Of a DNA stretch of 64,000 nucleotides, positions 25,242 through 27,367 are shown piece after piece (position 1 is the stretch's first letter; every line of letters starts with the position of its first letter). This DNA is from Qipengyuania citrea (GTDB taxonomy: Bacteria > Pseudomonadota > Alphaproteobacteria > Sphingomonadales > Sphingomonadaceae), in contig NZ_JALJZT010000002.1 of assembly GCF_024171405.1 (NCBI RefSeq), positions 124,001 to 188,000 on the forward strand, in the 5' to 3' direction. The notes under the pieces are model-generated. The model was not told where the DNA came from and ran no database searches. It worked only from the letters and a program-made list of their open reading frames with translations. Position numbers and translations under genes: made by a program.

Positions 25242-26906
25242 ATGCTGACCCGGCTCTCCATCCGCAATATCGTGCTGATCGAAGCGCTCGACCTCGCCTT
25301 CGGGCGCGGGCTGGGCGTGCTCACGGGCGAAACCGGGGCGGGCAAGTCGATCCTGCTCGATGCGCTGGGGCTGGTGCTGGGCAACCGCGCCGACAGCGGG
25401 CTGGTGCGCAGCGGCGAGGACAAGGCCAGCGTTTCGGGAACCTTCGACTTCAACACCCTGCCGCGCGGCCTTGCCCGATTGCTCGACGATGCGGATATCG
25501 AACTGGAGGACGGCGAACCGCTGATCGTGCGGCGCCAGCTCAAACCCGATGGCAAAAGCCGCGCCTTCGTCAACGACCAGCCGGTCAGCGTCGGCCTGCT
25601 GCGCGACATGGCGGGTTTCCTCGTCGAACTGCATGGCCAGCATGACGACCGCGGGCTGGTCAATCCGCGCGGGCACCGGGCGCTGCTCGACCGTTTCGCC
25701 GGGGCGGACACCGCGCGGGTCGCGGAGGCGTGGAGCAAATGGCGCAGCGCCGAGGAGGCGCTGGCCGAAGCGCGCGGCGCGGTGGAAACCGCCAAGGCCG
25801 ACCAGGATTTGCTGCTCGCGCATCTCGCCGAACTGACCGCGCTCGAACCGCAGGCGGGCGAAGAGGCGCGGCTCGCCGCAACCCGCGCGGACATGCAGAA
25901 GGGCGAGAAGCTGTCGGGCGATCTCGAGGAATTGCGGCATTTGTGGGAAGGCTCGGACTCGCCGCTCGCATCGCTGCGCGTGGCAGCACGGCGGCTCGAC
26001 CGGATCGCGCCCGAACATGCGCTGCTGGCCGAAGCGCTGGGCGCGCTCGACCGCGCGGTGATCGAAGCGGGCGAGGCGGAGGAAAAGCTGCAGGCCGCCG
26101 CCGAGGCGCTGGTCCACGACCCCGCCGCGCTCGATGCCGCCGAAACGCGGCTGTTCGAACTGCGCGCGCTGGCGCGCAAGCACCGCTGCGAAGTGGACGA
26201 GCTGCCCGAGACGATGCGCGCCATGCGCAGCCGGCTCGAAAGCATCGAGGGCGGCGAGGCCGAGCTCGATGCGCTCGAAGCGGCGGCGAAGGACGCGGGC
26301 GCGGGCTACCGCGCGGCGGCCGAAGCGCTGCACGCCAACCGCCTTGCCGCCGCGCTGCGGCTCGACGAGGCGGTGACGCGCGAACTGGCGCCGCTCAAGC
26401 TCGACGCCGCGCGTTTCCGCACTGCGGTGACCGCCTTGCCCGAGGACAAATGGGGCGCGAGCGGCATGGATGCGGTCGAATTCCTCATCGCCACCAATCC
26501 CGGCGCCGATTTCGCGCCGCTCACCAAGATTGCCAGCGGCGGCGAACTGTCGCGCTTCATCCTCGCGCTCAAGGTCGCGCTGGCCGAGCAGGGCGGGGCG
26601 GCGACGGTGATCTTCGACGAGATCGACCGCGGCGTCGGCGGCGCGGTCGCCAGCGCGATTGGCGAACGGCTCGCGCGGCTCTCCGCCGACGGGCAATTGC
26701 TCGCGGTAACGCACAGCCCGCAGGTCGCCGCGCGCGGACGCATGCATTACATGATCGCCAAGTCGAGCGACGGCACGGTGACCAAGACCAGCGTCGCGCT
26801 GCTCGACGAAGGCGGGCGGCAGGAAGAGATCGCGCGTATGCTCTCGGGAGCCGAAGTTACGCCTGAAGCCCGTGCACAAGCCGATCGGCTGCTGGAGGGG
26901 GTGTGA
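25242..26906 (+). CDS. recN: DNA repair protein RecN (SMC-like ATPase)
   Basis: 554 residues. Walker A GETGAGKS at 29-36 follows MLTRLSIRNIVLIEALDLAF. A long Ala/Glu/Arg-rich coiled coil runs from about 155 to 370. The C-terminal ATPase half has SGGELSRFILALK (ABC signature), VIFDEIDRGVGG (Walker B) and AVTHSPQVAA. RecN holds broken DNA ends together in recombinational repair. ATG 25242 matches the family start; an ORF nine codons longer is not needed. The stop overlaps the ATG of the DUF559 gene (TGATG). Confidence 0.95.
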   Translation: MLTRLSIRNIVLIEALDLAFGRGLGVLTGETGAGKSILLDALGLVLGNRADSGLVRSGEDKASVSGTFDFNTLPRGLARLLDDADIELEDGEPLIVRRQLKPDGKSRAFVNDQPVSVGLLRDMAGFLVELHGQHDDRGLVNPRGHRALLDRFAGADTARVAEAWSKWRSAEEALAEARGAVETAKADQDLLLAHLAELTALEPQAGEEARLAATRADMQKGEKLSGDLEELRHLWEGSDSPLASLRVAARRLDRIAPEHALLAEALGALDRAVIEAGEAEEKLQAAAEALVHDPAALDAAETRLFELRALARKHRCEVDELPETMRAMRSRLESIEGGEAELDALEAAAKDAGAGYRAAAEALHANRLAAALRLDEAVTRELAPLKLDAARFRTAVTALPEDKWGASGMDAVEFLIATNPGADFAPLTKIASGGELSRFILALKVALAEQGGAATVIFDEIDRGVGGAVASAIGERLARLSADGQLLAVTHSPQVAARGRMHYMIAKSSDGTVTKTSVALLDEGGRQEEIARMLSGAEVTPEARAQADRLLEGV

Positions 26907-27367
26907 TGCCCGCGCCAAAGGCCCCCTCTTCTTCAGAGGAGGGGGTTGGGGGTGGTGGCGTCTCGCCAGAGACGCTTCGCGCCCGAGCCGCCCGAATGCG
27001 CCGCGATATGCCCGAGCCCGAACGGCGCCTGTGGAATGAATTGCGCGGCAAGCGGCTTTCCGGCTTGAAATTCAGGCGACAGGTCGTGATCGGGCACCGG
27101 ATCGTCGATTTCTTCTGTCCCGCGAAAGGGCTGGTGATCGAAGTGGAGGGCGATACACATGACCCGGTGGCCGATGCGGACCGCGATGGGGCGATGCTTC
27201 GGGACCATGGGTTTGCCACCGTGCGTTTCACCAATCACCAGATCATGCGCAATCTGGACGGGGTGCTGGAGAAGTTGACGAGCGTGCTTGAAGAAACAGC
27301 GGATCGCTGGCCGAAAGGTCGCGAACACCACCCCCAAACCCCCTCCTCTGAAGAAGAGGGGGCTTAA
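26906..27367 (+). CDS. DUF559 endonuclease-domain protein inside an inverted REP pair
   Basis: 153 residues. The core (about 25-125) is a DUF559 PD-(D/E)xK-like nuclease domain related to very-short-patch repair enzymes: [40 protein letters not shown], then [11 protein letters not shown] (acidic D...E-x-E motif) and [15 protein letters not shown]. The first 20 residues (Ser/Glu/Gly-rich) and the last 12 ([13 protein letters not shown]) are translations of the flanking inverted repeats. The gene thus looks inserted with its repeats between recN and ligA. The ATG overlaps the recN stop. Chemical function is unproven; mobilisation of the repeats is an inference. Confidence 0.8.
26921..26957 (+). 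repeat. REP-like hairpin repeat, left copy
   Basis: CCCCCTCTTCT and AGAGGAGGGGG form an 11-base stem (one G-T pair) closed by a 2-base loop, followed by the tail TTGGGGGTGGTG. The inverted partner lies at 27326-27363, on the other side of the DUF559 gene. Confidence 0.85.
27326..27363 (-). repeat. REP-like hairpin repeat, right (inverted) copy
   Basis: The reverse complement equals the left copy at 26921-26957 except for one extra T in the tail. Its end provides the purine run AGAGGGGG that serves as the ligA ribosome-binding site 5-6 bases before the ligA ATG. Confidence 0.85.

Follow-up and report, generated by a model that had tools for sequence, protein, structure and literature searches.

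Between recN and ligA of Qipengyuania citrea lies a small gene that is framed by two inverted copies of a short hairpin-forming repeat (REP), and this layout raises the question of whether the repeats are chance neighbours of the gene or belong, together with its product, to one system. The locus is part of a stretch of 64,000 nucleotides, the whole of which we call the window; the three genes of the locus are all read from the forward strand. The neighbours recN (25215..26906) and ligA (27369..29552), as the earlier note had named them, are supported by NCBIfam profiles that both exceed their cut-offs (TIGR00634, 456 bits versus 408, for the recN open reading frame, whose start codon is uncertain; LigA NF005932, 795 bits versus 369). 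The gene between them (26906..27367) encodes 153 amino acids from an ATG at 26906, with a GTG at 26903 as an alternative start, and its beginning overlaps the stop codon of recN (TGATG, 26904-26908). Its identity as a DUF559 gene is borne out by Pfam (PF04480, 104.2 bits versus a cut-off of 20.6, residues 24-128).

The inverted pair is real: a single extra T (TTGGGGG versus TTTGGGGG) is all that distinguishes the left REP (26921..26957, forward strand) from the right REP (27326..27363, reverse strand). Each consists of a hairpin (CCCCCTC..GAGGAGGGGG) with a G-rich tail on its inner side, which on the left reads TTGGGGGTGGTG; the stem of the left hairpin, hairpin A, spans 26921-26946, and directly inside the left REP the fold computation places a small hairpin B (26958..26975, forward strand). 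The remark in the earlier note that the first and last codons of the gene lie within the repeats was inexact, because both the start and the stop codon lie outside them, the former (ATG or GTG) by at least 15 nt and the latter (27365-27367) just beyond the right repeat. The repeats thus encode only residues close to both termini of the protein. Folded as single-stranded DNA, the left repeat together with hairpin B reaches a z of -3.8 and the right repeat one of -1.9, with 9 of 200 shuffles folding equally well. The hairpin with a GGGGGTGGTG tail is present on the left side in 16 of the 20 loci listed, the window's own counted, and was not found there in L042, L048, L053 and L055. We found no promoter site that would point to a promoter role for the repeats or the gene region, and the single terminator-like site near the gene is no more than shuffled sequences contain.

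The window's stem 26921-26946 holds one T.G pair, present in both arms and kept in Qipengyuania, with C.G at this place in the Novosphingobium loci; the pair is noteworthy given the Vsr fold of the enzyme (see below). A T.G mismatch in the hairpin was rejected as a general signal because the stems of other genera and types are perfect.

We measured framing as the best local alignment between the upstream flank of a gene and the reverse complement of its downstream flank, and called a gene framed at a score of at least 30; fixed thresholds took the place of a 99 percent one, which was spoiled by perfect self-match windows (score 560, taken as N stretches). The window's gene scores 68, a value to be set against shifted windows in the loci of the genus, of which 5/1123 reach 30 and 0/1123 reach 35. 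Across 60 congeneric genomes, DUF559 genes were divided by E-value into conserved, weak and sporadic strong classes, with class limits of our own choosing, and the first two classes, together with the shifted windows, served as comparators. Framing was found in 48 of the 55 sporadic strong copies (one of which, L122, is broken and weaker) versus 1/17 conserved, suf-type genes and 1/21 weak ones, the latter two being samples of the loci found.

The same holds far beyond the genus. A draw of 150 genomes from the phylum contained DUF559 at E 1e-15 in 35 of them, and 50 of the 70 copies scored (out of 80 non-own matches) were framed, versus 5/261 windows; by relatedness, the framed fraction was 14/16 in the same family, 26/37 in the same class and 10/17 in other classes. 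Among 16 plasmid copies, a sample of 37 plasmid DUF559 matches, and E. coli ycjD, 9/17 scored at least 30 (Deinococcus 4/4, Pseudanabaena, Sinorhizobium, Azospirillum lipoferum, Sphingobium, and a Sphingomonas suf copy at exactly 30), versus 1/32 shifted windows, that one at 52. E. coli ycjD scored below 30, as did seven of the 16 plasmid copies: Neisseria, two Synechocystis, Picosynechococcus (29), A. brasilense, a Sphingomonas copy beside dnaG, and Photobacterium. One orthologous DUF559 set was largely unframed (6/11). A further 61 loci, 46 of them at 30 or above, were found partly via repeat-encoded peptides and are therefore biased to framed copies, so that we excluded them from all rates. 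The resemblance to REP-flanked transposase (RAYT) genes, pointed out in the earlier note for this one locus, is therefore a recurrent layout, seen in 48/55 strong copies of the genus and 50/70 copies of the phylum draw.

Some loci of this survey deserve separate mention. The conserved DUF559 class lies between sufB and sufC, so annotated in L321 of Sphingomonas, and is also present in the window's own genome (G000:C2:2003374, L003), beside suf genes. In locus L025 of genome G021 (1436-2340), a REP-framed DUF559 and a following conserved-class DUF559 form one open frame of 372 amino acids, an arrangement that would fit the arrival of an element at the start of the conserved-class gene. On three Deinococcus plasmids (L323, L325 and L333), DUF559 genes lie at different junctions of the hpa cluster, on the opposite strand.

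The repeats are usually matched to the individual gene that they frame. Genome G083 carries eight framed DUF559 genes whose repeats are largely distinct. In the 24 genomes that have more than one framed copy (67 framed elements in total), the two arms of one element align with a median score of 66, versus 23 with the other elements of the same genome, and the own partner arm was the best match in 57/67, a result that is favoured toward own pairs by the choice of framed elements only.

The repeats also accompany DUF559 genome-wide. Rather than being equally common in genomes that lack the gene, the REP pattern CCCTCYCC-loop-GGRGAGGG-NNRGGGNGRGGG occurred in 23 of the 35 carriers versus 9 of the 115 non-carriers among the 150 phylum genomes (Fisher p 1e-11), although this p value overstates independence since carriers are related, and a family-stratified test is weaker (odds ratio 9.4, permutation p 0.002). 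Carriers held 831 copies, up to 294 per genome, and non-carriers 63. The pattern was drawn from flanks of carriers in the same genomes, so that by construction each gene brings one or two copies with it and low counts mean little; at a threshold of at least five copies, the counts were 17/35 carriers versus 2/115 non-carriers. The pattern represents a part of the repeat types and was absent from 12/35 carriers, and a reversed-pattern control gave zero copies in every genome. Within the genus, REPs of the window's own type (type 1) were found off the gene in 5/7 carriers versus 4/53 other genomes, with few copies in each (0-5 off the gene). For type 2 the figures were 10/15 versus 7/45, a count in which G028 stands as a non-carrier though it has a decayed DUF559 with remnants of type-2 repeats (score 29).

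A RAYT was rejected as the mobiliser of these repeats in the window's genome: Y1_Tnp had no match in this genome nor in 54/59 other genomes of the genus (the 5/60 with a match include the type-1 carrier G027), and in the phylum draw Y1 transposases were unlinked to REPs of the DUF559 type (13/69 genomes with them, 19/81 without, p 0.55).

The repeats also occur as pairs without a gene. A genome search for the REP and for like-framed DUF559 copies, along lines that the earlier note had laid out, found gene-less repeat pairs scattered about and framed copies recurring in relatives. The gene-less element is about 140 bp long; one of its ends is the same hairpin as in the window, the opposite end is a related hairpin, and the middle varies in part. 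The place of hairpin B is taken by this variable inner stretch, which forms a hairpin in some copies. Such doublets account for nine of the off-gene copies of the window's REP, which were aligned with one another. Four of them lie at separate places in genome G032, two of these 2.4 kb apart, and one site is common to the window's genome, G023 and G043. The doublet of the window's genome folds strongly on itself (z -6.5), and 27 of the 30 genomes read are without the doublet at this site, where some of them have other repeats instead. A doublet site of G032 is likewise without it in 14/14 other genomes read, but it is no clean insertion, as the surrounding sequence also differs from the relatives. 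Inspection by eye of these two sites revealed no clear target-site duplication. The 12 close type-2 doublets and the 10 pairs that contain a gene have, without exception, one and the same orientation.

One intergenic spot, upstream of an asparaginase-like gene (L367-L396), holds different repeat types in different genomes, varying among the group of the window's genome, G005/G025/G041, G032/G047, G008 and G038. It is perhaps a hotspot of turnover.

What kind of protein the repeats frame can be judged from its fold and conservation. Pfam gives DUF559 as a family of unknown function. An AlphaFold2 model of the window's protein (mean pLDDT 79) matched a Neisseria structure best (3hrl, Z 14.8; sequence match E 6e-18), the homing endonuclease I-Bth0305I second-best (Z 11.4), and then Vsr itself (1cw0, Z 9.7, 97 residues, rmsd 2.6; 1vsr, Z 9.0), which Foldseek alone ranked weakly (E 0.12). 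Asp68, Glu79 and His85, within a putative active-site region (27107..27160, forward strand), are invariant across a 29-sequence alignment and may be the catalytic residues. The gene is under purifying selection, with dN/dS of 0.12-0.14 versus three relatives and about 0.31 (0.028/0.090) versus the very close G023. The fold matches, the invariant residues and dN/dS make it very probable that the protein is an active nuclease belonging to the Vsr/EDxHD group. Two other roles were discarded: as a defence system the locus gave only weak partial PADLOC matches (DpdF, 15.7 bits; PDC-S69, 13.4), and as phage cargo it was matched in only 1 of 50,697 phage records.

The junction between recN and ligA shows how the gene is inherited. 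From 30 loci taken, part of which were parsed, we read it as filled in five genomes (the window's, G023, G032, G041 and G027) and as having no room for the element in six (G007, G018, G020, G033, G034 and G048), so that relatives lacking the segment, which the earlier note had thought worth seeking, do exist. In G007, whose LigA is 96 percent identical to that of the window, recN and ligA lie one base apart. The TGATG that follows recN in the empty allele of G018 opens a frame running into ligA; in the window, ligA starts at 27369. In L191 and L192 (genomes G043 and G005), other inserts of roughly 650-740 nt seemingly lie between the two genes.

Both recN and ligA are nearby in 15 of 21 related loci, although up to about 2 kb of further sequence separates the two in some of these, and this placement extends over Qipengyuania, Erythrobacter, Novosphingobium, Sphingobium, Sphingorhabdus, Aurantiacibacter and another member of the Sphingomonadales. 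Distances between the DUF559 proteins track those of LigA and RecN (Mantel r 0.73 in both cases, p 2e-4; RecN versus LigA, 0.85), which argues that spread between lineages is not dominant. By local alignment with ten of these loci, from other genera, the window's REP arms score 0.89 and 0.82, the gene 0.63, recN 0.77 and ligA 0.72, values to be read against the chance level for local-alignment matches in 207 windows of the same loci (mean 0.33, five at 0.6 or above, maximum 0.84). The window's type of gene has therefore mostly stayed at the recN-ligA junction across genera, by largely vertical inheritance, and does not look like a frequent jumper; a freely jumping gene is unlikely for type 1, whose copies have flanks that group at a single locus. 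DUF559 genes do move or duplicate at times, since L042 and L049 have type-1-like ends in loci where neither recN nor ligA was found, and at least five flank clusters contain genes framed by type-2 repeats.

We consider it probable, if by no great distance, that a REP system with a dedicated DUF559 nuclease has its enzyme locus in this segment, the system being analogous but unrelated to the REPIN-RAYT systems. The small Vsr-fold nuclease would recognise its own type of REP, a C-rich/G-rich hairpin with a G-rich tail, when the repeat forms an extruded hairpin or cruciform, for instance on a lagging strand, and would nick at the extruded REP. Host repair or recombination might then copy the short inverted doublet to a new place, while the gene itself mostly stays between its two REPs, is inherited mainly vertically and is often lost. 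Of the earlier note's suggestion of a different kind of REP-mobilising enzyme, the RAYT-like layout and the link between REPs and DUF559 are supported, the latter through co-occurrence and pairing; that the nuclease recognises and nicks its REPs and causes the dispersal of the doublets is what we infer.

Three other readings were weighed. The first is a homing-type drive, by which cleavage by the nuclease of recN-ligA alleles that lack the element lets recombination copy it in, so that the REPs are mere borders and their dispersal a by-product. The second-best fold match to I-Bth0305I (Z 11.4) and the patchy presence of the window's type at mostly one locus speak in its favour, and one study assigns a DUF559 gene to the EDxHD homing family (PMC9403480). 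We regard it as unlikely, however, as it leaves the matched REP pairs, the scattered gene-less doublets and the genome-wide link between REPs and DUF559 unexplained, and the tracking of LigA and RecN distances argues against dominant spread between lineages.

To the same low degree, we could credit a domesticated repair or surveillance nuclease that processes REP hairpins or mismatches and so protects the genome, the repeats accumulating by other means and the gene being kept beside its substrate. Such a role would suit the Vsr fold (Z 9.7) and the purifying selection on the window's gene, and a Caulobacter DUF559 protein, VsrA, is described as one that a methylase mutant requires for its SOS response (PMC12907096). 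A protective enzyme, however, need not have type-specific REP borders, and the REPs are commoner, not rarer, where DUF559 is present. Least likely, by a small step, is that REPs spread by an unrelated enzyme land near small genes, with framing a coincidence or a terminator or insulator effect: tagged REPs do often lie near the 3' ends of genes, by the relevant parts of a survey (PMC3733652), but against this stand the framing of 48/55 strong copies versus 2/38 other DUF559 genes of the genus and 5/1123 windows, the type-specific pairing of arms, the near absence of Y1 transposases from the genus and their lack of a link to the REP pattern, and a terminator signal no higher than in shuffles.

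If the reading of a REP system with its own nuclease is correct, its scope could be wide. DUF559 nucleases may be the second class of REP-propagating enzymes, of independent evolutionary origin, in which one small nuclease of the Vsr/homing fold, rather than an HUH or DDE transposase, drives the dispersal of type-specific REP doublets. This would hold for Pseudomonadota and probably also for Deinococcota and Cyanobacteriota, two groups in which there are framed copies as well, and would explain many untagged G/C-rich REPs; on this generalisation we would bet neither way. Many bacterial REP families are without a known enzyme, and one broad untagged class is now tied to a little-studied nuclease family, for which REPs become the likely substrate. 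The matched enzyme-repeat pairs, several of them in one genome, are open to tests in vitro. If two or more unrelated enzymes have indeed maintained REP populations, comparison becomes a way to test why bacteria retain REPs. No earlier report of a link between DUF559 and REPs was found in the open-access literature that we searched, most subscription papers lying outside it.

Several known systems resemble this one in part. CGTC-tagged REPs, found mostly in alphaproteobacteria, are likewise short palindromic repeats in inverted dimers, but both arms in the window are without a terminal unpaired CGTC and consist of C-rich/G-rich hairpins with a G-rich tail. For CGTC REPs no enzyme is known, and REP-like families without tags exist, according to parts of a large survey (PMC3733652). 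With the Vsr endonucleases, the Caulobacter VsrA and the Neisseria protein 3hrl, the gene shares fold and sequence family, REP framing being the feature seen here; the strings 'inverted repeat' and 'palindrom' are absent from the main text of the report on VsrA (PMC12907096).

The EDxHD homing endonuclease I-Bth0305I is alike in the fold of its catalytic domain (Z 11.4) and in presence or absence at one site. Homing endonucleases are encoded in introns, in inteins or by free-standing genes that interrupt or adjoin their own target site. The window's gene is intergenic, with no intron or intein seen at its locus, and scattered gene-less repeats carry the same ends.

The closest parallel is the REPIN-RAYT system or REPtron, whose published descriptions, in the parts on which we rely, give an enzyme gene flanked by REPs, repeat-specific enzymes, dispersed inverted doublets, more repeats where the enzyme is present, and vertical inheritance (PMC8049555, PMC3733652). 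The window's locus works like a RAYT system but is no member of that family, because an HUH transposase and a GTAG tag were both looked for and are absent: its enzyme is a DUF559 nuclease of the PD-(D/E)XK type, not an HUH Y1 transposase, and its REPs have the tail TTGGGGGTGGTG instead of an unpaired GTAG end. Vertical inheritance at one locus is shared by the window's type (15/21 loci), unlike type 2. Common to both systems are the REP-flanked gene, the repeat-specific pairing of enzyme and REP, a number of repeats that goes with the enzyme, and inverted doublets dispersed through the genome without the gene.
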